64,000 nt of DNA from Shewanella livingstonensis (lineage in GTDB: Bacteria; Pseudomonadota; Gammaproteobacteria; Enterobacterales; Shewanellaceae), in contig NZ_CP034015.1 of NCBI RefSeq assembly GCF_003855395.1, forward strand, positions 2,242,001 to 2,306,000. The letters are read 5' to 3'. The notes under the pieces were generated by a model that did no database searches, had not been told where the DNA came from, and worked only from the letters and a program-made list of their open reading frames with translations. The position numbers and the translations under genes are program-made. Shown in pieces: positions 366 to 52,497 of this stretch (the stretch's first letter is position 1; every line of letters begins with the position of its first letter).

Positions 366-490
366 AAGAGCTTTTCTTAACCTGTAGAGATAGTCATCTA
401 AAATTTGTTCAAGTGTGGCTGAATTTCAGTGTAGGCTTAGTATTTTTTAACACAGTCAATTTATCTCACTGACGATGTAGGAGGTATCAT

Positions 491-900
491 TTGAAACGCT
501 TTGAAAGTTTAAGTTAGCTGATTTCTCATCTTAATATTGCCTTACAGCAAGAGCTCGATGCACATTTAAAGCGTTATGAGTTGGACTGTAAACTTTGGCC
601 GATATTGTTTGCACTATGGCAAGAAGAAGGCTTGAGCAAAACTGAGTTATCTAAACGTTGTGATATAGCCTACTACACCATGACGCGCCTTTTGGACAAT
701 CTACAAATTCAAGGGTTTATTACCTGCCATTAAGAGGCCGACAATCGTCGGGCTTTTCAACTGACAACAGTAAAGCACTATAGCAAGACTTAGTACACGA
801 AGCCGAGTAGGTAAATGAACGCTTTTAAACTGCGCTAAATCATGCTGAACAGGATGAATTTATGCGTTTGTTGAATAAAATTAATCGATTTAGCCAATAA
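491..900 (+). pseudogene. MarR-family transcriptional regulator, degenerate
   Basis: Conceptual translation gives a recognisable winged helix: L-S-K-T-E-L-S-K-R-C-D-I-A, then T-R-L-L-D-N-L and E-A-D-N-R-R-A-F-Q-L-T, the MarR recognition-helix and wing pattern. The frame is broken by stops at 515-517 and 731-733. A frame change near 780 follows, then further stops at 808-810 and 826-828 before the natural stop at 898-900. The candidate start is a TTG after GGAGG-like bases (480-484). Several independent lesions mean it has been non-functional for some time. An intact MarR would be about 135-150 residues, which fits this span. Confidence 0.8.
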
Positions 901-1234
901 GATTTAATTGCAGCGGCTACCAAGAGAGTTTTGGAGATAGTTTGCTCTGTATATCCCGATCCCGCCATCACTTCCCCCTTTACGTTACCTGTACTGTACA
1001 TCCATACAGTTATAATGGATTTTGAATGAATTACAATAAAACGTGTACAAAAAGCAATCTAAAGTGCTAGAGATGAATAAATAGATAAAATCTAATCTAT
1101 TGATATTAGGTGATTAATTTTTTTAGTATTTAATTTTGGCACTTTTAACGCGCAATCGAAGTTTTATCTCAGAGGTTACGTTTCATTAAATGGCTTTACA
1201 TCAATGAGATAGAGAATGTAGGATGATATTAATC
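901..1234. other. Gene-free stretch carrying an orphan LexA box
   Basis: No convincing reading frame on either strand. The only clear signal is a perfect LexA-type palindrome at 994-1009 followed by TATAAT at 1011-1016. The rest is AT-rich with scattered stops. The stretch lies between a dead MarR gene and the first attC-like site, where an integron integrase gene and attI would be expected in an intact integron. Neither is visible. Confidence 0.6.
994..1009. promoter_or_regulatory. LexA (SOS) box without an obvious target gene
   Basis: CTGTACATCCATACAG matches the gammaproteobacterial LexA operator CTGT-N8-ACAG perfectly and is extended by TA on the left. A TATAAT hexamer follows at 1011-1016. 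No gene starts immediately downstream on either strand. Integron integrase promoters are commonly LexA-controlled, so this may be the relic of a lost intI promoter at the edge of the cassette cluster. That link is inference. Confidence 0.6.
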
Positions 1235-1286
1235 AATAACTTAAACGGCCGGCTTTATTGGGCGAGCCGTTGAATAAGCTGTTAGA
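1235..1286 (+). repeat. Putative short attC site (cluster start)
   Basis: Imperfect palindrome: AATAACTTAAACGGC pairs with GCCGTTGAATAAG, followed by CTGTTAG. Size and layout resemble a short attC site with a terminal GTTAG core. It sits 13-20 bases before the first small gene of the cluster. The fit is weaker than at the later sites, because the R'' core is degenerate. It could also be an unrelated hairpin. Confidence 0.4.
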
Positions 1287-1304
1287 GCTACCAAGAGGAT
1301 GGTG

Positions 1305-1655
1305 ATGGATTCTAGGGAATTGAATGAAATATATGGTTATGAAGCTAGGGTTCAACTGAGCTTTATTTCTTATATGAAAATAGCTTCGATAATTTGTTTT
1401 ACCTTTGCAATTATCGTAACTGTATTTCTTCGCACAATAGTTATTACAACAACCGAACCCGGTATTAATGAATCAACATTAAATACTTGGATGGCTGTTT
1501 ATATGCTTGTTGGCTTTTTCCTTAGTAGCTTTATAAGTTCGGCTATTTCTTATCCCTTATATTCTTTTATCTGTTCTAAACAGAAAGGACAAAGAGTAAC
1601 TGGTAAATTTGCAGTGTTGGTAAGTAGCTCTAACAAGCAAATAAACAAGGACTAA
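1305..1655 (+). CDS. Cassette-borne small membrane protein, unknown function
   Basis: A 116-residue protein. I chose ATG 1305 over ATG 1299 because AGAGG at 1293-1297 is then about 7 bases upstream. Two hydrophobic segments are visible, at roughly residues 25-45 (I-A-S-I-I-C-F-T-F-A-I-I-V-T-V-F-L) and 63-86 (W-M-A-V-Y-M-L-V-G-F-F-L-S-S-F). The N-terminus is charged and the C-terminus is a short basic tail. I recognise no family. The attC begins inside its 3' end (TAACAAGC at 1631), as is usual when a cassette gene fills its cassette. It is preceded by a putative attC at 1235-1286, so it is likely one integron cassette. Confidence 0.6.
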   Translation: MDSRELNEIYGYEARVQLSFISYMKIASIICFTFAIIVTVFLRTIVITTTEPGINESTLNTWMAVYMLVGFFLSSFISSAISYPLYSFICSKQKGQRVTGKFAVLVSSSNKQINKD

Positions 1656-1720
1656 AAACAGCGGGCTGTTCGCTTCGCTCCATTTTAGCCCACTATTTTT
1701 AGCCTGTTATTTGGGCGTTA
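1631..1720 (+). repeat. attC recombination site 1
   Basis: The outer arms TAACAAGCAAATAA (1631-1644) and TTATTTGGGCGTTA (1707-1720) are complementary apart from extra or mismatched bases, as in attC R''/L'' and L'/R'. The site ends in GCGTTA. An inner inverted repeat (GCGGGCT / AGCCCAC) closes the hairpin around GTTCGCTTCGCT. The same scaffold recurs at 2076-2171 and 6829-6925, the within-array similarity expected of a chromosomal integron. Confidence 0.8.
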
Positions 1721-2075
1721 AATGCCTCTAATCTATAGCACGTATTAGTTTTTGAATTGTGTATTTGAGTTTCAGTGAATTGTGTTTCGTTCGTAAATTG
1801 GTGCGTTGTGGTTTTTCTAAATACGCCCATTCCGTTGAAGCAGACTATTTACTAACAGTCGCCAGTGTAAATTTTAATATCGGAATGCAAAGTAGATTAA
1901 GGCTCCGTTTTTCTTGGTTTTGGTCACTAGCGGAAATTCTGTTTTTAGTTTCTGATTGTTAAATATTGAATGTGTCATATTTTCAAAATATTGAACTAGT
2001 TTCTGAACGCTAAAGAATGTAAAGTTACCGAATATCAGCAAGTTAGTGCTGGCAGTAATGTTGTCCAAAAAGGCA
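1721..2075. other. Cassette without a convincing gene
   Basis: The interval between attC sites 1 and 2. The best frames are a 67-residue one at 1759-1962 (+, TTG start, no ribosome site) and a 71-residue one at 1874-2089 (-). Neither shows a domain or a good start. Integron arrays often include cassettes lacking an obvious coding sequence, which may hold promoters, small RNAs or decayed genes. I cannot tell which applies here. Confidence 0.5.
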
Positions 2076-2171
2076 GTTAACAAGGCCATTAAACGGAACT
2101 AAAACAGTTGGCTTAGTTTCGCTTCGCTACACATTATAGCCAACAATTTTAGTCCGCTTATGGCGGCGTTA
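2076..2171 (+). repeat. attC recombination site 2, carrying the intron at its end
   Basis: The left arm GTTAACAAGGCCATTAAACG pairs with the right arm TCCGCTTATGGCGGCGTTA at the 3' end. The inner inverted repeat is GTTGGCT / AGCCAAC around TTTCGCTTCGCTAC. It shares this scaffold with the sites at 1631 and 6829. The final A of GCGTTA (2171) is directly followed by GTGCG, the 5' end of a group II intron, so the intron separates this attC from the next cassette gene at 4143. Confidence 0.82.
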
Positions 2172-2738
2172 GTGCGTCAAGCAAAGCTTGATGCATCTTG
2201 CAGGGTGTAAGTCCCTGTCAGGTAAGGTTTAACCAACCACCTGTATCGAGTGTTGCACCTTTGGCGGAGTGTGAGATTAGCAGATGCTTTTCAGCAGTGA
2301 GGACTGCATCACGCGAACAATATTGGTGAAGCGTACACAGAGAATTATGTAGGCCATAGGGGCTGTCGTGGCCCTGAAGTGCTGGTATCGCTCCGATAAA
2401 TACTAGAACTGACTGACGAGGTTTGTAACGCCATCGAAGTCCATGCAAAGCAGCCGTTATTCATGTAAATGAAGGGTGAGGTTGTGGCGAGTCAGCGGAG
2501 TTATCAAGCCGTGGCATGCATAAAGAGATGCTTCAGGAACTTGAGAGATCCAAAGGTGTTCCATCAGGACGATGGTAGAGAAGTCTAGTTAAAAGCGAGG
2601 CGAACGATGACCCTTTGGAAGTCAGATCAGCCCGTAGTAGTCTGAGCAAGGGAAAGCCTTGTACATGGCAAAGGAGCTGACAGTTATATTAGGTATTAAG
2701 CAGAGACATAGTCCGGACAAAGTAGGGCTGGGGACACT

Positions 2739-4028
2739 ATGATAACCACACTTAATGCCATCGCATTTAAAGCACAAACCCACCCCAAGCACAGGTTTCA
2801 GAATTTATATGGACTACTAAATACTGACAGCCTGTATCAAAGCTGGGGGCAACTCAATAAGCAAGCGAAGCCAGGTATCGATGGCATTACCATGCCTAAG
2901 TACCGAGATAAGCTGATAGAAAATATCGACCGTTTAGGTCAGCAACTCAAACAGAAATGTTATCGAGTTAATGACATCAAACGGATCTTCATTCCTAAAT
3001 CGAACGGTAAATTACGCCCTTTAGGCCTACCAACGGTAGATGACAAGCTAGTGCAACAAAGTGTCAGTCAGATCCTGCAAAGCATCTGGGAACAAGACTT
3101 TTTGCGTAATAGCTATGGTTATCGACCGAATAAAAGTGCGCATCAAGCGGTGCATAGTTTAACGCTCAATCTGCAATTTAAAGGTTATGGTTATATTGTT
3201 GAAGCTGATATTAAAGGCTTCTTTGACAACCTTGATCACGAATGGCTGATGGCTATGCTCGAGCAACGAATTGATGACAAGGCGATACTTAATTTAATAA
3301 ACCAATGGTTAAAAGCACGAATAAAATCCCCTGATGGTGTCTTTACTAAGCCATTAAGTGGTAGCCCACAAGGTGGCATTATCAGCCCTGTGTTAGCTAA
3401 TATTTATTTGCATTATGCGCTAGACCTTTGGTTTGAAAAGAAAGTGAAGCCAAGGATGAAAGGCCGAGCAATGATGATCCGTTATGCGGATGATTTTGTT
3501 TGTGCGTTTCAGTTTGCACATGATGCTGAACGCTTTTATAAGGTTTTGCCGAAACGATTAAAGAAATTCAACCTAGACGTCGCAGAAGATAAAACATCAT
3601 TGATGCGATTTAGCCGCTTTCATATTGGGCGAAAACGTCATTTTGTATTTCTTGGATTTGAGTTTTACTGGGGCAGAGATTCGAAAGGTAAAGCAAGACT
3701 CAGACGACGAACCGCTGTGAAGAAGCAGAAGGCGACGTTGAGCGAGTATTATCAATGGATTAAAGCCAAGCGCTCATTAAAACTGAGTATTTGGCTTCCG
3801 CAGTTAAAACGTAAATTAACAGGGTTTAGAAACTATTTTGGTCTTCCCGACAACAGCCGAAGCCTGAGCTACTTATACGATTATGTTCTGCATAACTTGT
3901 ACAAATGGTTGAATAGGCGTAGTGGACGGCGAAGTTATAACTGGAGTAATTTCAAGAAGATGTTAGAGTATTTTAGAATTGAGAGTCCAAAGGTCAACAA
4001 GCGTTTGGTGTTGATTGATTGGTACTAG
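2739..4028 (+). CDS. ltrA: Group II intron reverse transcriptase/maturase
   Basis: A 429-residue protein that helps its host intron splice and copies the RNA into DNA at a new site. The reverse transcriptase blocks are present in order: G-I-D-G (about 46-49), F-I-P-K-S-N-G-K-L-R-P-L-G-L-P (84-98), S-Y-G-Y-R-P (125-130), D-I-K-G-F-F-D (157-163), G-S-P-Q-G-G-I-I-S-P (208-217) and the catalytic Y-A-D-D (249-252). The thumb/maturase X region follows with W-L-P-Q-L-K-R-K-L-T-G-F-R-N-Y-F-G. No HNH endonuclease domain is visible, so it would depend on single-stranded or replication-linked targets. It is complete and free of frameshifts, unlike the second copy at 7326-8716. Confidence 0.92.
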   Translation: MITTLNAIAFKAQTHPKHRFQNLYGLLNTDSLYQSWGQLNKQAKPGIDGITMPKYRDKLIENIDRLGQQLKQKCYRVNDIKRIFIPKSNGKLRPLGLPTVDDKLVQQSVSQILQSIWEQDFLRNSYGYRPNKSAHQAVHSLTLNLQFKGYGYIVEADIKGFFDNLDHEWLMAMLEQRIDDKAILNLINQWLKARIKSPDGVFTKPLSGSPQGGIISPVLANIYLHYALDLWFEKKVKPRMKGRAMMIRYADDFVCAFQFAHDAERFYKVLPKRLKKFNLDVAEDKTSLMRFSRFHIGRKRHFVFLGFEFYWGRDSKGKARLRRRTAVKKQKATLSEYYQWIKAKRSLKLSIWLPQLKRKLTGFRNYFGLPDNSRSLSYLYDYVLHNLYKWLNRRSGRRSYNWSNFKKMLEYFRIESPKVNKRLVLIDWY

Positions 4029-4062
4029 GATCGTGTTTTACACGAGTGAATATATAACTGAA

Positions 4063-4096
4063 GAGCCGGATGCGGTAGTTCCGCACGTTCGGATCT
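4063..4096 (+). ncRNA. Group II intron domain V
   Basis: GAGCCGGATGCGG, a short loop, then CCGCACGTTCGGATCT forms the 34-nucleotide bulged hairpin typical of domain V, the catalytic core of group II introns. It lies 35 bases after the reverse transcriptase stop codon, the normal place. A domain VI-like stem with an unpaired A follows and ends in ACGAT. Confidence 0.8.
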
Positions 4097-4142
4097 GTGT
4101 GGGGTCGGGTCAGTAATGGCCCGCTCTACCACGATTGTGTAA

Positions 4143-4484
4143 ATGATGAAACTGATATTATCGAGTCTATTTATAGGCATCTTATTATTAATTTATTTTA
4201 TAGTACCCAAAAATACAGCGGTATTAACAATAACTAATAGTTCTGATGTGATTGTTACAAATCTTGAAATAAGTATTAGAGGTGAGCCTTGTATTAGGTC
4301 TCAATTGTTACCTAAAACAAATACAAAATGTACTTTTAAAGTTAATGGAGACGCTGGTTACAGAGTTTTATGGGATGGTAAAAAAGCAGAAGAACTTGGC
4401 TATGTAACTAACGGTATGGATTTTCAAGATCAATTAACAATATACAACAATGGTAAATTAAATTTAGAATCAGTTGCCTTGTAA
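4143..4484 (+). CDS. Cassette-borne small exported or membrane-anchored protein, unknown
   Basis: A 113-residue protein. Residues 3-21 are strongly hydrophobic (L-I-L-S-S-L-F-I-G-I-L-L-L-I-Y-F-I-V), either an uncleaved anchor or a signal peptide, so the rest should face the periplasm. Two cysteines (in G-E-P-C-I-R and T-K-C-T-F) could form a disulfide. No family is recognised. It starts seven bases after the intron, or directly after GCGTTA if the intron is spliced out, with no clear ribosome site. Short distances to attC are common in cassettes. The A+T-rich codon use looks foreign. Confidence 0.55.
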   Translation: MMKLILSSLFIGILLLIYFIVPKNTAVLTITNSSDVIVTNLEISIRGEPCIRSQLLPKTNTKCTFKVNGDAGYRVLWDGKKAEELGYVTNGMDFQDQLTIYNNGKLNLESVAL

Positions 4485-4492
4485 ATTACACA

Positions 4493-4545
4493 TAACTAAT
4501 AAGGATAGGCCGCGCGAAGCCGCGTCCTTATCCCAAGTGTTGAAC
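4493..4545 (+). repeat. Putative short attC site 3
   Basis: A strong imperfect hairpin in which TAAGGATAGGCCGCG pairs with GCCGCGTCCTTATCC. It is flanked by ATAACTA on the left and AGTGTTGAAC on the right, where GTTGAAC fits the GTTRRRY core. It lies just after a small cassette gene, as an attC should. It could instead be a transcription terminator of that gene, although no T-run follows. The next bases begin the IS91-like element. Confidence 0.5.
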
Positions 4546-4754
4546 AAGCCCGAACACCCTCAGAGTGACTCTTTATTATGTAAATAACAGCTCGAGAAAA
4601 CGCGCTGTTTGATGTGATGGTTATCGGGTAACTTTTCTGTAGTCAGCAAGTTCCCTTAGCTCATTTGCTAATTATTTAACTCTCTTAATTTCAGTGCGTT
4701 AAATTAATCCTCCACGGTATTCAGTTAAGCCATTATCCTTATTATTTTCCAGCA

Positions 4755-5841
4755 TTAGGTTATGAGCCGTAAATTTGTCGGTCGTTTCACTATGCCCATA
4801 AAGCGCATTGGTTGCTGGCAACAGGGGCAACTGCGCGTCGCTAATCTGCGCTTTATCTCAGGAATGATTGGAAACACGGCCCCTGCAACTGCCAGCATAA
4901 GCTGTATTTGTAGCCTGAGCTTTTTGGCGTTACCTCTGAGTAATCCACTGTTTGTTACTAGAGTCACGGACTCGCCTTAATCCCTTCGGTAATACGTGTT
5001 GCAGTATTAACCAGAGAAATTCTATGGCGGGTAAGGTGCGTACTTTTGTCGACTTTGTTTGGCTGTCTTCATACTCGAAACCCACTTGACCATCGACAAG
5101 ACTGACGATGCTTTTATCGGGCAGTACGCCACGATAAAGATAGCGTGATAGATACTGCAACGCAGGCAAGCCTTTGCCCACATGCAGGCAGTCTACTACC
5201 CACTTTTTGGGCAGTGAGGTTGGTAGTGTGAGATTAAGCTTTGCCAAATGTTCCAGCAAACGTGCGCGCCAGACATTGGCGAGGTTAAAAGCGTTAAACA
5301 GGTATTTACCTTTGTTCTTTTTCCATTGCTTTTGGCTCTTGTTAAAACTGCCCGCTGGAATAATAAAGTGAATGTGCGGATGCAATTCACGCCGTCTGCT
5401 GTGAGTATGAAGTACGCCGGTGAAACCAATATCACCGGCAAGCTTAGGTGAGTTAAGCGCAAAGTCTTTGAGCACACTGGCAGCGACGGCAAACATGGCT
5501 GGATAGAGCGCTTCGGGTTGATATCTAGCCATAACACGCAGTTCATATGGCAAAGTAAATGTCACCATAAAGTAATCAACAGGCAAGAGTTTAGCCTGTT
5601 GCTTGGCTAACCAATCAGCTGTGGTGTTGTACTGACATTGCGGGCAGCTGCGATGCCCACATGACAGCGGAAAGTCAGCGGTATGCGTGCAACCCTGACA
5701 AGCCCAGTGGCTGGCTCTTTGTGAATGAGAGCGGCAACTGAGCATGGCATTTATCGCTTGGCGCATTGATGCTGTGATTTGGCCTTCATAAGTCTGATTA
5801 AAGGCATCAAGATGGTCACGTAAAATATCGATAAACTTCAT
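4755..5841 (-). pseudogene. IS91-family HUH/Y2 transposase, C-terminus frameshifted
   Basis: Rolling-circle-type transposase. An N-terminal cysteine/histidine zinc finger (C-Q-G-C, then C-G-H-R-S-C-P-Q-C) is followed by the HUH motif in L-H-P-H-I-H-F-I-I-P and the paired tyrosines in Q-Y-L-S-R-Y-L-Y-R. The first frame runs 303 codons and ends at 4930. The last 60-70 residues, including a second zinc-knuckle C-P-C-C-Q-Q-P-M, continue in another frame from about 4960 to 4755, so one frameshift or small insertion near 4940-4965 breaks the gene. HUH and Y2 residues are upstream of the break, so partial activity cannot be excluded. Its ATG overlaps the recombinase stop (ATGA). Confidence 0.85.
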
Positions 5842-6728
5842 ATGTCACACTCCCACTTAAGCACCAAATTATCAGTGAGCTGGTTAATTGACAGGACAGT
5901 GTTCTTACGGGTAATTTGAGTGAGACGTGTATACTTTGCCGTGGTGTTGAGGCTGTTGTGACCGAGTAAATGCTGTACTGAGCGTAAATCGAGACCTTGT
6001 TCGAGCAGATGAGTCGCATAGCTGTGACGTAGATTATGCGGGCTGATAGATTTGTGAATGTTGCAGTCGCCAATCACTTTTTTCATGGCCTTTTGAATAC
6101 CACCACGGTCCATTAGTGAGTCAGGTTTACCGTCTTTACCAGGAAATAAAAGCTGAGGATGACGATGAGTTTGCCAGTAATATCGCAGCGCTAACAGTGT
6201 GCGCTGTGGTAAAGGGACTAGCCTGTCTTTGCCGCCTTTGGCGTCACGGATATGCACCTGCATCAACGCTGAATCGATATCGCCAACGTGCAATGAAATG
6301 GCTTCACCGAGGCGCAATCCCATACTGTACAAGGTTAAAAAGCACACTTGATATCGCAGCTTATGGGTGAGACTAATGACGATAGAGACTTCGGCAGGGG
6401 TCAAAATATCGGGTAAGCGTTTGACCTGTGGTGGCTTAACAATACTCAGCCACTCCCAGTGCTGGTTAAGCACATACCGGTAGAAAAACTGTAACCCATT
6501 ACGGTCAAGTTTAACGGTACTCCATGAGTGAGAAGCAATTAAATCAGCAAAGTACCGCTTCAAATCATTGGTTGAAAGGTTGTCAGGACAGCAGTCAAAA
6601 TAAGCACTAATGCGCCTAACGGCGCGACTGTACGCATCGATGGTGGCGGGTCGCTTGCCTTGTAGCGTTAGATTGGTAAGATGTTGTTCATAAAGAAAAT
6701 CAAAGCGTTGTTGTTCATGAGTTTCCAT
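5838..6728 (-). CDS. Tyrosine recombinase of the IS91-like element
   Basis: A 296-residue XerC/D-like recombinase. I chose the ATG with AGGAG 8 bases upstream, eight codons inside the longest frame. It has an N-terminal SAM-like core-binding domain (about 10-95) and a C-terminal catalytic domain. Catalytic residues are visible: Arg in G-L-R-L-G-E, H-N-L-R-H-S-Y, L-G-H-N-S and the nucleophile Tyr in A-K-Y-T-R. It lacks the inserted patch of integron integrases. It is coupled to the downstream transposase by a 4-base overlap. Recombinase-plus-Y2-transposase pairs are known in a subgroup of the IS91 family, where the recombinase role is unclear. Confidence 0.85.
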   Translation of the reverse strand: METHEQQRFDFLYEQHLTNLTLQGKRPATIDAYSRAVRRISAYFDCCPDNLSTNDLKRYFADLIASHSWSTVKLDRNGLQFFYRYVLNQHWEWLSIVKPPQVKRLPDILTPAEVSIVISLTHKLRYQVCFLTLYSMGLRLGEAISLHVGDIDSALMQVHIRDAKGGKDRLVPLPQRTLLALRYYWQTHRHPQLLFPGKDGKPDSLMDRGGIQKAMKKVIGDCNIHKSISPHNLRHSYATHLLEQGLDLRSVQHLLGHNSLNTTAKYTRLTQITRKNTVLSINQLTDNLVLKWECDI

Positions 6729-6828
6729 GGTGATACTCCTAGGTAATGCCAAGGTAGGCAGGGTCTAGTAAGTATTTATGATGGTGCTAAAGATGTGTTT
6801 TTATCTTTTCTGCCGCAGAGCGGCTTCG

Positions 6829-6925
6829 TTCAACAAGCCAATTCAGCAGGACAAAAAACAGTTGGTTTTGCTCCTGCGTCGCTAATTTTAACCAACTATT
6901 TTATTGCCTCTGATTGGGGCGTTAG
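6829..6925 (+). repeat. attC recombination site 4
   Basis: The outer arms TTCAACAAGCCAATTCAG and CTGATTGGGGCGTTAG are complementary with small offsets, ending in GCGTTAG. The inner inverted repeat AGTTGGTT / AACCAACT surrounds TTGCTCCTGCGTCGCT. The inner scaffold is nearly that of site 2 (GTTGGCT / AGCCAAC). It is separated from the previous cassette by the IS91-like element and directly precedes a small gene at 6939. Confidence 0.8.
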
Positions 6926-6938
6926 CAGTACAAAGCAT

Positions 6939-7235
6939 ATGTCATTAGAATTGTGTGAACTTAAAAGAAGTAGAGTTGGTAAGCTACTTTTATATATTAA
7001 CAATGAACAATATTCGGATATTTTAGCTATTTTAGATTTATATCGTTTAAAATCTGGAATAGAAATTGGTCCGTATTCAGATACAAAGCTGAGTTCAGGG
7101 TTAAATACTCTTATTACTTGCGCACTTGAGATCATTAATTCAAGCAAAGGTTGCAAACAGATACAACAAGAGTTTCTATCTGTATTACAAGCAGCAGAAT
7201 CCGAGAATAAAAATATAATATTCCTCGCAGAGTAG
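6939..7235 (+). CDS. Cassette-borne hypothetical protein
   Basis: A 98-residue soluble protein. The frame is open further upstream, but that part runs through the attC, so I chose the first ATG after GCGTTAG (14 bases later). No ribosome site is obvious. Composition is helical and mixed-charge (for example L-L-L-Y-I-N-N-E-Q-Y-S-D-I-L-A-I-L-D-L-Y), with no membrane segment and no recognised family. Eight bases after its stop codon lies the 3' end of an oppositely oriented group II intron, which separates the gene from its own attC at 9342. Confidence 0.55.
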   Translation: MSLELCELKRSRVGKLLLYINNEQYSDILAILDLYRLKSGIEIGPYSDTKLSSGLNTLITCALEIINSSKGCKQIQQEFLSVLQAAESENKNIIFLAE

Positions 7236-7243
7236 TACTGCTA

Positions 7244-9336
7244 ATCGGGTAGCCGGAGGTATCTAGCCTCCAGCCCCCACACCACCCTGCATGCGGCTCC
7301 GCACAGGGCGGTTCATTTAGAACACCTAACTAGCTTTCTGGTTAGGATATTGAACTGCGATCCATCCGTCTCTCAATGAATATAATCCTGCTTTCTTCAG
7401 ATATTCATTACTCAGCGCTTGCTGTATCCCAGGTGTTTTAGAGCTACGCCAAGGGCCTTTACTTGTGATACCACAAGCAACAGCGGCTTGGATCCTGACG
7501 CCACGTTTAAGTAAGTTTTGTACCTTAGTCCGTGGTTTTCGCCACTGACGCCATTTTTCTCAACCCAAAGTCACATACGAACACGACGTCGGATCCAATG
7601 GTCACTCTGTATAAAGAATAGGCAACACACCCTTGATAAGCGTTAGCGATGCCAAAGTAATTGATCCAGCCTTGCCTTCTTGTTTCATAAGAGGTGACGC
7701 ACTTTAAACAGCTGATAACTCATACTCACGCCCCAATTTCGGTTCGTTAGTCGTCTCATCTTTTGTTTGAAAATGTGTAATGTTTTAGCATGCCACTGGA
7801 TCTTGCCTCGGTTAAATGTAAACCCAAGAAACTTACTTTGAGCAACTTTAACCACTTGGCTTTTCTGTTCATTTACAACCAGTTTTAACTTAGCTGCAAG
7901 GTATTGAGTAATGCTCTTGAGTACTCGTTCGCCTGCGCGTTGAGACTTTACCAATATGATAAAATCGTCCGCGTAGCGGGCGAATTTGTGCTCTCGGCTT
8001 TCCAGCTCTTTATCCAGACTATCCAACATAATGTTAGAGAGTAATGGCGAGAGTGGGCCGCCTTGAGGCACACCTTCCAAGCTTGCTTCAAATTGGTCAT
8101 TGACCATCACACCTGCTCGTAGGTACTTACCGATAAGCGCTAATAGGCGCTTATCCTGTACTTTATTCCTTAGCTGAGTCATCAAGAGATCATGATTAAC
8201 TCGGTCAAAGAACTTAGACAGATCAACATCGACGGCAAATTTGCGTTTTTGTTTGATGATATCCCTTACTTGCAGTACCGCTTGTTTGGCATTTCTGTTC
8301 GGCCTAAAGCCAAAGCTGTTGGTCGAGAAGAATGGGTCAAACAGTGGCGTGAGTATTTGAGCAATGGCTTGCTGTATCACACGGTCAATGACGTTAGGGA
8401 TCCCCAATTTGCGTTTACCGCCATCGGGTTTGTCGATCTCTACGCGCCTGACCGCTGAGGGTTGGTATTCACCTCGCTCTAATTGAGATTTACACTGTTG
8501 CCAGCCGCCTTGTTGCATCCAGAGCGGGAAGGCTTCGATGGTCATGCCATCGATGCCCGCCGCACCTTTATTGGCTTTCACTTGACGCCAAGCTCGGTGT
8601 AGATTTTCAGGTTCGAGCAGTTGTTGAAATAGATCGCGGTTGAAGGCCGGTTGCATATCAATACGCTGCCGATAGTAATCGTCTGGCGACGTAGTGGGTA
8701 TCGACAAGTTTGACAAGACTCCTCCTTCTTCTAAATGTTCAGGCCTTCACCATGTCCCATCCATTACGATGGGCGTTGGGCTACTCGGCAACTGCTCCTG
8801 CATTGCTCTACCTCCTGCATCCATGCAGTCGTATGCCGTCTGCTGACTTCTGCTTAATCACATGCCGAGTTGCCCCGTCATGCGCTATCGGTTTCCATCT
8901 AGTTCGCTCTTTTCAGTCGATGATGCTGAAAAGCCAAGGCACTTATAAACCAGAGCCTTACTGGTTAATGACCGATCGCGTGTTAAGCAGATCTCCCCAG
9001 ATAAGAACATGAACTTTCTTTGCACTGCTGCATCATTTACGGTGGCCATTAGATCACGTGGTTTCGTCGTCTTGTACCCTTGCTTCGCGGGGCAGACCCT
9101 GCCAACTCACCTCTAGCCTACGCCTCATATGATGTTCTTGTTCATCAGCTCGCACTCTTTGACAACTAAGTAGGGCTAGCGGCTTCCTCCGGACCAAACC
9201 TCGCGATTAAGCCCTTGCCATTCGCTAGTAGTTAACGTTTAATAACAGTATGTTATTCTCTAATTGATAAGAGTAACGGTGACCTTCCTACAGAGGACTT
9301 TCACCTCATTAGTTCATGCCCATGCTGGGCGTACAC
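7244..9336 (-). mobile_element. Group II intron, minus strand, with broken reverse transcriptase
   Basis: On the minus strand the element starts at 9336 with GTGTACGCCCAGCATGGGC, close to the GTGCGCCCAGC start I know from many bacterial group II introns, with a small insertion in the usually invariant GTGYG. It ends at 7244 with CTACCCGAT, preceded by a domain V/VI region (about 7250-7312: CCGCCCTGTGCGG, then CCGCATGCAGGGTGG). The encoded reverse transcriptase is frameshifted. It differs from the first intron in sequence and orientation, so it is an independent arrival. The insertion lies 5 bases from the R'' core of an attC. Confidence 0.75.
7326..8716 (-). pseudogene. Group II intron reverse transcriptase, frameshifted in the maturase region
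   Basis: The first 343 codons are intact and hold the polymerase core: G-I-D-G-M (54-58), D-V-D-L-S-K-F-F-D-R (163-172), G-V-P-Q-G-G-P-L-S-P (215-224) and Y-A-D-D (248-251). The main frame then stops at 7685. The C-terminal maturase/DNA-binding part continues in other frames. G-W-I-N-Y-F-G-I-A, D-H-W-I-R-R-R-V-R-M (then a stop) and W-R-Q-W-R-K-P-R-T-K-V-Q-N-L-L-K can all be read down to 7326. At least two frame changes and one stop separate these blocks. The polymerase domain may still be translated, but splicing help is probably lost. Confidence 0.85.
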
Positions 9337-9341
9337 AAGTC

Positions 9342-9436
9342 GTTCAACACGGAAGCGTAAACGGCTGTCATCGTTTTTGCAAAAAGCAAAAGCGCAAAAA
9401 CAATACCAACCTACGCTCCGGTTAACGAGGCGTTAG
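9342..9436 (+). repeat. attC recombination site 5
   Basis: GTTCAACACGGAAGCGTA pairs with TACGCTCCGGTTAACG near the other end, and the site closes in GCGTTAG (9430-9436). The centre contains a second self-complementary stretch, TTTTTGC...GCAAAAA. The centre differs from sites 1, 2 and 4, so it belongs to another attC lineage. It is the attC expected after the 6939-7235 gene, displaced by the minus-strand intron, and it precedes the gene at 9473. Confidence 0.72.
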
Positions 9437-9472: not shown

Positions 9473-9853
9473 ATGGAAGGTATTTTTTGTAGTTATTATG
9501 ATGAAGAAATTGACCAAGATGTACCATTGCAACCCGATTTAGCTGAAGCAATCTCGTTTTTCAAAGGTTTTATTTGGGAAAATCAGAATGAAGAATCAAC
9601 AATGAAAATGTTGATTCTTCAAGCTACAGGATCAGACGAAGCATCATTATTTATCTCATCTTTAAATAAAGGTAAATGGGAAATAGGTGCAACGGCATCG
9701 ACGCGAAGACGTTTTTTGGGACCTTTTTTTAAAAGAGTGACCTCTGAATCATTCATAGATAACACTGAGAGAGAAACATTAGAGTTCATAAGTTTCTTTT
9801 ACCAAAAGACATTGGCAGATTTCATTGCTCTATTGGAGAAGAATGGGCATTAA
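9473..9853 (+). CDS. Cassette-borne hypothetical acidic protein
   Basis: A 126-residue soluble protein with an acidic N-terminus (Y-Y-D-E-E-I-D-Q-D-V-P-L-Q-P-D). AAGGAA sits about 8 bases before the ATG, the best ribosome site among the cassette genes. No membrane segment, signal peptide or known domain is recognised. It follows attC site 5 and is the last gene with a cassette-like position. No attC is visible after it, so its 3' boundary was probably lost when the adjoining transposase remnant arrived. Confidence 0.6.
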   Translation: MEGIFCSYYDEEIDQDVPLQPDLAEAISFFKGFIWENQNEESTMKMLILQATGSDEASLFISSLNKGKWEIGATASTRRRFLGPFFKRVTSESFIDNTERETLEFISFFYQKTLADFIALLEKNGH

Positions 9854-9888: not shown

Positions 9889-10385
9889 TCAAATATGCAG
9901 TTTGTTAGATGAAGCCGCAGTCTTAACCTGTATAGCTTATGTTGACTACTCATTATTTAAACAGAGGTCCTATCCGCGTCGAAATGGCCACTACACCCGA
10001 AACCTCAGACTACACCAGTATTCAACGTCGAATTAACTCCGCCATAAAAGGTGAGCAACCCAAAGAATTATTGCCTTTTGTCGGCAATGAGCGGCTAGAT
10101 ATGCCTAATGGGCTGATGTTCAGTGTTAAAGACTATATCGTGCTTGTGGAAGATACGGGTCGTATTATTCGAGAGGATAAACGCGGTGCCATTAGTGTCA
10201 GTAGCCAACACATTTTAAACAGACTCAATATTCCAGCTGAAAACTGGCTTAAAATCACTACTGAGTTTGGCTCATTATTTAAAGGCGCAGTAGGGGCGTT
10301 ACCGGCATTAACAGAATATTGTGAACACTTAGAGCGAAAACGACGACAAGGCGCATCAAACTGCCAGCGTTGGTTATGCGCTTAA
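9889..10385 (+). pseudogene. REP-associated-type (IS200-like) transposase remnant, C-terminal part
   Basis: The reading frame (ATG at 9939, 148 codons) starts inside a larger gene. L-L-D-E-A-A-V-L-T-C-I-A-Y-V-D is readable just upstream in a different frame, and P-I-R-V-E-M-A-T-T-P-E continues after the frame change. This matches the C-terminal third of the large HUH-type transposases common in Shewanella and relatives, with the later blocks L-L-P-F-V-G-N-E-R and R-E-D-K-R-G-A-I. The N-terminal domain with the HUH motif and catalytic Tyr is missing, so it is dead. Confidence 0.75.
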
Positions 10386-11031
10386 GAGTGAACGTATAAA
10401 ACACAAACTACAATAATAACCTCATTTCCAGCTTGATTAATATCAAGCCACCAGTGCTGCTTTTAATCTGCAGTATTGCTCGATTTCCCCCTAATTAGTT
10501 CAGTATATTTAGGATTTTCAGTCAATCTTTGCATTTAAATCTTGGTTAGGGCTATCGCAATCAATGCGAAAAGGCATTTTGTTAATTCATAATTAAAATG
10601 GGTGGCTTGGTTTATTGTGGTTTATTTAATGTCCCTAACTCATGGCAATCAGCCCAACTTTGCGCACCCGAAATCACAGCACTTAGGACGAGGAAGCTGA
10701 TATCAATGACATCATGTTCTTGATTTATATGGGAACGGCAATCAGTAATCTTATCGAGATGTTTAAGCATATTAAGTATAAAGACAAAGAAAAAGAGCGC
10801 TATTTGATCACACTGGCGAGATCAATCAAGCTATTTTTTATCTCTTTTTTTTTAAAGAAGACGTGTGAAAAACGATCGAGTATGATCAGCCCCTGGACCA
10901 AGAGTAAGTCCATTTTTGTCCTCAATACTTTCGTAGACGTGACATGCTCATGCCTAAAATACGTGGCTCATTATAATAGATATCTTAAATCGGTCTAATG
11001 AATAAATACCGAGCGCACAAGCATGGGTATT
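10386..11031. other. Gene-free stretch after the transposase remnant
   Basis: No supported gene. A 94-residue frame (10714-10998, +) lacks a ribosome site, has biased low-complexity content and matches nothing I know. The first part may still belong to the decayed transposon. The stretch ends at a tandem repeat. Confidence 0.5.
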
Positions 11032-11858: not shown

Positions 11859-12046
11859 TGTATGTTTAGAAAAGAGTTTCTTGCATAAATGTTAGTTGTG
11901 TTTTATCGATATTACTATGTTCTCAATTACTTATTGAATAGTATTTATTTGAAGTCGTATTCTGAACGATAGATCAATGTCTAATATGATTGTTTAGTGC
12001 AGTCTTCATCATAGCAATCGCAATTAATGTAAAATGGAAAACCATT

Positions 12047-52163: not shown

Positions 52164-52223
52164 CTTTAGTCTGGTAAAAATAAGCAATTCATCGCTCCCT
52201 GTCTGTTGATTAGATCATAAGAC

Positions 52224-52260
52224 AAAAAAAGGCCCAAAACTATCCAATTGTTTTGGGCCT
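52224..52260. terminator. Hairpin between tatD and rsmF
   Basis: AAAAAAAGGCCCAAAAC, loop, then GTTTTGGGCC: a 10-base perfect stem. The T-run is on the minus strand, so it terminates rsmF-side transcription best, while tatD transcripts would also meet the hairpin. It lies in the 334-base gap 52164-52497, which holds no gene. Confidence 0.8.
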
Positions 52261-52297
52261 AGGGAAAGGGCTCGATTAAGAGCCTTGCGCTACTGTT

Positions 52298-52334
52298 ATG
52301 GCATTTTAAGCGCTAAGCGCGCTTAAAATGCCAT
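52298..52334. repeat. 16-base perfect stem hairpin between tatD and rsmF
   Basis: ATGGCATTTTAAGCGC, 5-base loop TAAGC, then GCGCTTAAAATGCCAT. It follows a smaller GGCTC/GAGCC hairpin at 52268-52283. No T-run. It could be part of a repeat family or a third transcription barrier. No coding content. Confidence 0.7.
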
Positions 52335-52497
52335 ATATTGAATCAAACATGAATAAACTATAGTCCGACAAAATGGTTTTTGCATATAATTTAATCAAAA
52401 AATATTAGTCTCGGTATGTGCTTTCCCAAAACCATTGATTGTGAGTACTTTATTATCCTCAGTCGCTTTAATGTTTCTAATCGCTTTAACGGTTGTG

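Follow-up and report, generated by a model that had tools for sequence, protein, structure and literature searches.

How does a short array of integron cassettes come to hold three different mobile elements, each lodged in or against an attC site? The question is raised by a stretch of 64,000 nucleotides (nt) of Shewanella livingstonensis, bases 2,242,001–2,306,000 of one 4.84-Mb contig (hereafter the window, in whose coordinates positions are given unless stated otherwise), in which four attC sites, small orphan genes, two group II introns and an insertion sequence (IS) of the IS91 type lie between 942 and 9435. We interpret the locus as a broken second integron with three elements at three attC sub-sites, one of them a member of a widespread, attC-preferring IS91-type group, and put the probability of this reading at about 85%. 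It draws on features read from the DNA itself: an intI stub, an attI, split attC sites, exact junctions that recur in relatives, and one occupied/unoccupied attC pair. An earlier note on this DNA had correctly recognized a stranded, decaying integron fragment in a Shewanella-type chromosome, interrupted by three mobile elements. The three different elements are present, but they do not appear to be mere interruptions, because the flanks of their relatives indicate that each has a target choice of its own that leads it to attC or to the attC core sequence: intron 2 to R'' on the bottom strand, intron 1 to the position after the R' core on the top strand, and the IS91-type element to R''.

A second, broken integron platform

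Two of the four attC sites are split by a mobile element (Table 1). A covariance model built from 12 attC sites, none adjoining an IS91-type element (model R1, in which attC1 and attC2 are training members), recovers all four, including those at 1631–1720, 2078–2171 and 6831–6924, for which the earlier note had proposed such a search. The matches to attC3 (6831–6924, E = 3.1e-13) and attC4 (9332–9435, E = 5.2e-5) lie outside the training set. When the bottom strands were folded alongside 200 shuffles each, all four folded better than their shuffles, with z = −2.6 for attC3 (2 of 200 shuffles as good) and z = −4.0 for attC4 (1 of 200). Because attC4 is split by intron 2, we assign it to the gene at 6939–7235. 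The first of the five attC-like sites claimed earlier, at 1235–1284, gives no match to the attC model and corresponds to the attI of an intact integron. R1 found no plus-strand attC beyond the four in the 64 kb up to E = 10, and of its four minus-strand matches three are the same sites read backwards. A second, Shewanella-trained model (R2, 24 attC sites), with which 150 of 2,078 first-look candidates across the genome were scored, returned among these 13 attC at E < 1e-5 and one weak match (14 in all): the window and a sister integron at 1.09 Mb have four each, and five plus the weak one are elsewhere.

Positions 950–1284, which take in the start of intI and the region up to the attI core, are 96.7% identical over 335 base pairs (bp) to the sister integron, and the match to the orthologue of the sister intI in another genome (G044) extends to 942. 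The stub keeps about 20 of the 330 intI codons and reads MYSTGNVKGEVMAGSGYTEQ, where the intact integrase has MNSIGSVKGEVMAGSGYIEA. The complete gene lies with its own cassettes at 1,089,864–1,090,856 of the genome, and its product passes the integron integrase model TIGR02249 (353 bits, cut-off 265). Thus the window, as stated earlier, has no functional intI, but it does retain the 5' stub; the complete intI that might have stood just outside it is 1.15 Mb away, and beside the window attI the stub is all that was found. An intI family search of the genome does not report the stub, whose call rests on DNA identity; standard software for finding integrons would therefore probably class the locus as a cluster of attC sites lacking an integron integrase (CALIN).

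The marR-like gene on the left has a counterpart after the DUF1285 gene in all 13 of the relatives compared. In one genome (G049) a Nudix gene, whose window counterpart starts at 12033 (PF00293), follows marR after about 200 bp with no integron between; in another (G099) a 73-bp attI-like relic (89% identity; L196 14112–14184) occupies the same place after marR as the window platform, with too little room between marR and relic for an intact intI. Identity between window and sister (96.7%) exceeds that between the sister and its G044 orthologue (92.5%). The platform at the marR locus may thus be a duplicate of the sister, as this identity would suggest, or ancestral, as the G099 relic would suggest. 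The sister's right-flank open reading frames (ORFs) gave no family match at E ≤ 0.01, and the name 'transposase-like' for the right-flank remnant was dropped for want of support in family searches. Because stub and attI match the intact integron and the right flank is common to both, the locus is, to judge by its sequence, a second chromosomal integron platform, broken and almost entirely stripped of intI, and a paralogue of the complete sister integron.

An IS91-type element inside the R'' box of attC

The element that splits attC3 encodes a Y2 (HUH) transposase with a zinc-binding domain, which places it in the IS91 family, together with a tyrosine recombinase. To our knowledge, no role has been assigned to the tyrosine recombinase that some IS91-family members carry. 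The window transposase has 303 amino acids (aa) compared with 357 aa in the sister copy; in the interval 4755–5841, sequence resembling the missing transposase end sits in another ORF.

Among 129 Shewanella genomes, the right end of the element has matches at 92 places in 43 genomes. CAACAA stands directly after it in all 30 loci returned, most of which continue into attC-like sequences that differ from one another, and R1 matches attC in 20 of these first 30 loci at E ≤ 2.3e-8. R2 was then applied to the boundary itself at 47 of the 92 places (30 genomes, 140 kb of loci). An attC started exactly at the right-end boundary, in the same orientation, in 31 of the 47 copies at E < 1e-3 and in 36 at E ≤ 0.05; the same 140 kb held five other matches at E < 1e-3 away from the boundary. 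The default filters of R2 overlook some boundary attC: switching them off brought 3 of the 11 misses to E ≤ 0.05 and one to 0.63. The copy in the sister integron is likewise at an attC (L009 14788–14879). A duplex-energy score for the attC arms was dropped because it separated poorly (at −14 kcal/mol, 20 of 48 copies and 40 of 291 control sites).

On the left side, TAAC precedes 29 of 31 left ends. Because TAAC stands on the left and an AAC-led attC on the right, we read the element as sitting inside R'', in the order native TAAC, element, native AAC and the rest of attC. Relatives of the IS-adjoining sites that are free of the IS occur at other loci and share up to 98.9% identity with them from about the AAC onward, in alignments beginning no later than the sixth base and spanning at least 90 nt at 88% identity or more, a comparison that alone cannot prove where homology starts.

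Shorter forms and fragments of the element also occur. Copies of about 400 and 580 bp (L208, at 5545–5952 of its reverse complement, and L085) have both ends, no room for genes and an adjoining attC, and look like non-autonomous derivatives. In the sister integron, a partial left end (L009 12423–12500) lies immediately before a complete copy, and elsewhere a solitary left end of 226 bp (L009 17479–17703) adjoins CATAAC. The intI locus of G044 (L013/L197) has a second tyrosine recombinase ORF of 279 aa that scores 126 bits against the recombinase of the IS, higher than every IntI compared.

The element beyond Shewanella

In a class sample of 369 gammaproteobacterial genomes, S. livingstonensis included, nine carry the recombinase at E ≤ 1e-50. 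R2 finds an attC at the boundary in seven of the nine loci outside our own genome (eight genomes; E ≤ 0.0021), one of them (L165) only with filters off; by the same model one further locus is weak (L160, E = 0.4) and one has no attC (L157). A bacteria-wide scan of one genome per species, using the exact pattern of the right end without its target bases, gave at least 116 stretches, of which 80 loci were read, in taxa that include Vibrio, Photobacterium, Psychromonas, Colwellia, Marinobacter and desulfobacteria. Among the matches listed, the right end is followed by CAA in 80 of 84 and by CAACAA in 60 of 84. None of the 84 reads CAACGC, which points to a preference for R'' rather than R'. Where at least 1.1 kb of sequence to the left was available, 33 of 38 right ends have a related recombinase beside them. 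This group, with its Y2 transposase and tyrosine recombinase, thus appears to be widespread and to prefer attC.

Among plasmids, six of the 301 matching records have the recombinase at an identity of at least 60%. One is the E. coli IncC plasmid RCS41_p, where the element lies between aadA1 and qacEdelta1. Compared singly with an uninterrupted natural aadA1 cassette, the left flank is 100% identical over 122 nt, although the final two fall within the element and agree only by chance, and the right flank over 58 nt; both matches take in the AAC of R''. From these alignments the aadA1 attC with and without the element can be read as a natural occupied/unoccupied pair. The other five records come from Photobacterium (four) and Salinivibrio (one), and by eye three of them have a whole attC-like site behind the right end of the element.

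Two introns at two other sub-sites

Intron 2 lies in R'' of attC4, at the target TTGT/T and in the orientation opposite to the cassettes, with junctions at 7244 and 9334. Its reverse transcriptase (RT) is of class C, scoring 326 bits to the GsI-IIC RT against 139 to LtrA. Searching with its 5' part, we found a 5' exon ending in TTGT in 29 of the 30 Shewanella loci returned, the window included. Intron 2 is an ordinary group IIC-attC intron: as described in PMC7923331 and PMC4424553, such introns share its class C RT, its TTGT/T target, its place in R'' and its opposite orientation, and no notable difference emerges.

Intron 1 follows the R' core GCGTTA of attC2. Its RT gives near-equal scores to the best IIC protein (149 bits) and to LtrA (141 bits), which favours neither class; its domain V starts GAGCC, with a triad read by eye as AGC, against the CGC of group IIC. 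The intron 1 query has 13 matches in 8 of the 129 genus genomes, one of which (L049) was set aside by eye as chance. In the 12 retained copies the 5' exon is GCGTTA in 11 and GTGTTA in one (L051), and by eye six follow a full attC, three a partial or degenerate attC and three unrelated DNA. A TAACGC complementary to GCGTTA occurs at 2426 and in the four other copies looked at, and the 3' end CGAT is the same in five copies. We propose that intron 1 would find its top-strand target, GCGTTA of the R' core, through pairing of exon-binding site 1 with intron-binding site 1 (EBS1/IBS1). Its kind is already known: PMC7923331 describes a IIB/CL1 intron, UHB.I2, that likewise lies directly after attC in cassette orientation. 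Whereas the exon of UHB.I2 is poorly conserved in that account, the GCGTTA exon of intron 1 recurs and is matched by a TAACGC; the recurrent exon is the addition made here.

How the element may find and rebuild attC

The core boxes of attC read RYYYAAC/GTTRRRY. The IS91-type element ends in GTTC, which with the target AAC gives GTTCAAC, a rebuilt R'' box that again fits RYYYAAC. The attC behind the element looks whole, and the gene before it loses its own attC. Were the rebuilt site to work, and given an integrase, here that of the sister integron, gene, IS and attC should move as one larger cassette. Most likely, the HUH transposase would join the element to folded, single-stranded attC, and the recombinase may help to choose the site or to resolve the product. 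In a bolder version, which we hold only tentatively and at less than even odds, these are attC-specialized transposons that enter R'', rebuild the box and ride cassettes, including those of resistance integrons, their recombinase recognizing attC through exchange at the AAC/GTT triplet.

The tyrosine recombinase, not the HUH transposase, might itself place the element, by AAC/GTT triplet exchange between a circular element and R'', much as cassettes integrate. Such an exchange would leave AAC on either side, as is seen in the window and in the aadA1 case, and the recurrence of the gene beside right ends fits a role of this kind. Yet the recombinase reaches 157 bits against the cut-off of 265 of TIGR02249 and is by that model no integron integrase, it scores IntI proteins (66–103 bits) and a second Xer-like protein of the genome (72–90 bits) about equally, and the element has an IS91-family Y2 transposase. 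Placement by the recombinase is a genuine possibility, with the balance tilted somewhat against it.

The element might also need only a short target, AACAA or CAAG, and strike attC because attC contains it. Several observations lean that way, or otherwise weigh against a preference for attC. Seven of the 47 Shewanella copies lack an attC even with filters off, and copies inside one genome are non-independent. Bacteria-wide, among the 80 listed copies whose flank is long enough, R2 finds a boundary attC in 30 at E ≤ 0.05 and in 34 at E ≤ 1, far fewer than have CAACAA; in some of the remaining copies AACAA follows but no attC is visible, and others look by eye like real non-attC targets. On the plasmids, one record has, by eye, the first half of attC only in the stretch printed (L209) and one has none (L211). 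Further, the attC models applied bacteria-wide were trained on Shewanella sites, and a search of the 129 genomes for cassette 3 of the window without the element returned the window itself as the only match. Several of the bacteria-wide misses resemble other attC types by eye, for example an aadA-like one (L251), which suggests that 30 of 80 is a lower bound; a palindrome count on these misses was uninformative. In Shewanella, the motif alone does not suffice: CAACAA is common, with 291 control sites in about 210 kb or roughly one every 0.7 kb, and attC is rare, with only the 14 matches in the genome, yet 36 of 47 copies are at attC. Moreover, the sub-site is always R'' and the attC always on the same side. 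We consider a short target improbable as the whole explanation, and keep to attC preference.

The locus could, further, be a plain CALIN, its cassettes placed by off-target integrase action where no platform ever stood. It does form a cluster of four attC sites without a complete intI nearby, the family search passes over the stub, and CALINs are common in Shewanella according to PMC9229058. The earlier note accordingly called it a CALIN, but a platform remains in the form of the intI start and attI, nearly identical to those of an intact integron with which the right flank is also common, and these contradict a locus that never had one; we judge the plain CALIN very unlikely. Least credible of all, to the point of being nearly dismissed, is that the attC belongs to the element and travels with it, as its position on the same side of most copies might suggest: the element end is conserved but the attC beside it vary, TAAC closes the left flank, these attC have IS-free relatives, and the aadA1 attC exists with and without the element.

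Relation to known systems

Taken by itself, the locus is a modest example of decay in an integron. More is to be gained from the IS91-type subgroup, whose unexplained recombinase now comes with a target, and which adds another kind of attC-seeking mobile element to the IIC-attC introns and IS1111-attC elements. The latter are insertion sequences targeting attC, with a transposase of the DEDD family. They thus resemble the window element in attC targeting and differ from it in transposase family. The rebuilt box suggests how a cassette may acquire a transposon and still keep its recombination site; a class 1 integron on an E. coli plasmid harbours one copy, and the roles of transposase and recombinase are directly testable.

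The closest precedent is a single case. In its accessible part, PMC9229058, which also mentions IS1111-attC elements, describes an IS91-like ISShvi3 beside attC in one Shewanella integron, reports no IS detected as interrupting attC and states no targeting rule. Beyond this one related case, no description of an IS91/attC targeting rule or of its spread was found in the open-licence literature searched. The CALINs that this survey describes in Shewanella resemble the window in being small orphan-cassette arrays in a genome with an intact intI; the window differs in keeping an intI stub and attI, and the survey left out partial IntI.

Features of the locus

Table 1. Integron remnant, cassettes and mobile elements of the window
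Feature	Position	Strand	Evidence or remark
marR-like pseudogene, native left flank of integron	470–900	+	Stops inside the window copy; fragment 581–733 matches PF01047 (MarR) above cut-off
intI 5' stub, about 20 codons	942–1001	−	DNA identity to intact gene; common N-terminus
intI-to-first-cassette region with attI	1002–1284	+	attI ends GTTA at 1281–1284; inside the 335-bp match to the intact integron
ORF of cassette 1, 118 aa, orphan	1299–1655	+	
attC1	1631–1720	+	R1 E = 1.7e-17 (training member); fold z = −3.4, 0/200 shuffles as good
Cassette 2, no convincing gene	1721–2077	+	Only a 67-aa GTG ORF
attC2	2078–2171	+	R1 E = 1e-21 (training member); fold z = −4.1, 0/200 shuffles as good
Group II intron 1, after R' core GCGTTA of attC2	2172–4135	+	Rfam RF02005; boundaries from relatives
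Intron 1 reverse transcriptase/maturase, 429 aa	2739–4028	+	TIGR04416 above cut-off
ORF of cassette 3, 113 aa, orphan	4143–4484	+	
attC3, split by IS91-type element	Bases up to 4496, main part 6832–6924	+	
IS91-type element, read as inside R'' of attC3	4497–6831	−	AAC on both sides, 4494–4496 and 6832–6834
IS91-family Y2 transposase	4930–5841	−	NF033538, 338 bits (cut-off 125); PF04986, PF14319
Tyrosine recombinase of IS91-type element, 304 aa	5838–6752	−	PF00589
ORF of cassette 4, orphan	6939–7235	+	Family searches covered 6933–7235, none matched
attC4, split by intron 2	7236–7243, main part 9335–9435	+	
Group IIC-attC intron 2, inside R'' of attC4	7244–9334	−	Rfam RF00029, RF01998, RF02001
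Intron 2 reverse transcriptase, 343 aa	7685–8716	−	Best solved relative GsI-IIC RT
ORF of last cassette, 126 aa, orphan	9473–9853	+	No attC found 3' of the ORF (R1)
Gene remnant, right flank	9908–10606	+	Common to sister integron (85.7%) and genome G035 (78.9%)

The four small genes that the earlier note called orphans remain so, with no Pfam or NCBIfam match at E ≤ 0.001. Elsewhere in the genome contig, attC lie at 2868124–2869862, 4135581 and 4519168–4519677, and the site at 2869768 stands beside IIC-attC intron matches. Further along the window, at 52220–52388, the small RNA pair SdsR/RyeB and SraC/RyeA is found on opposite strands.

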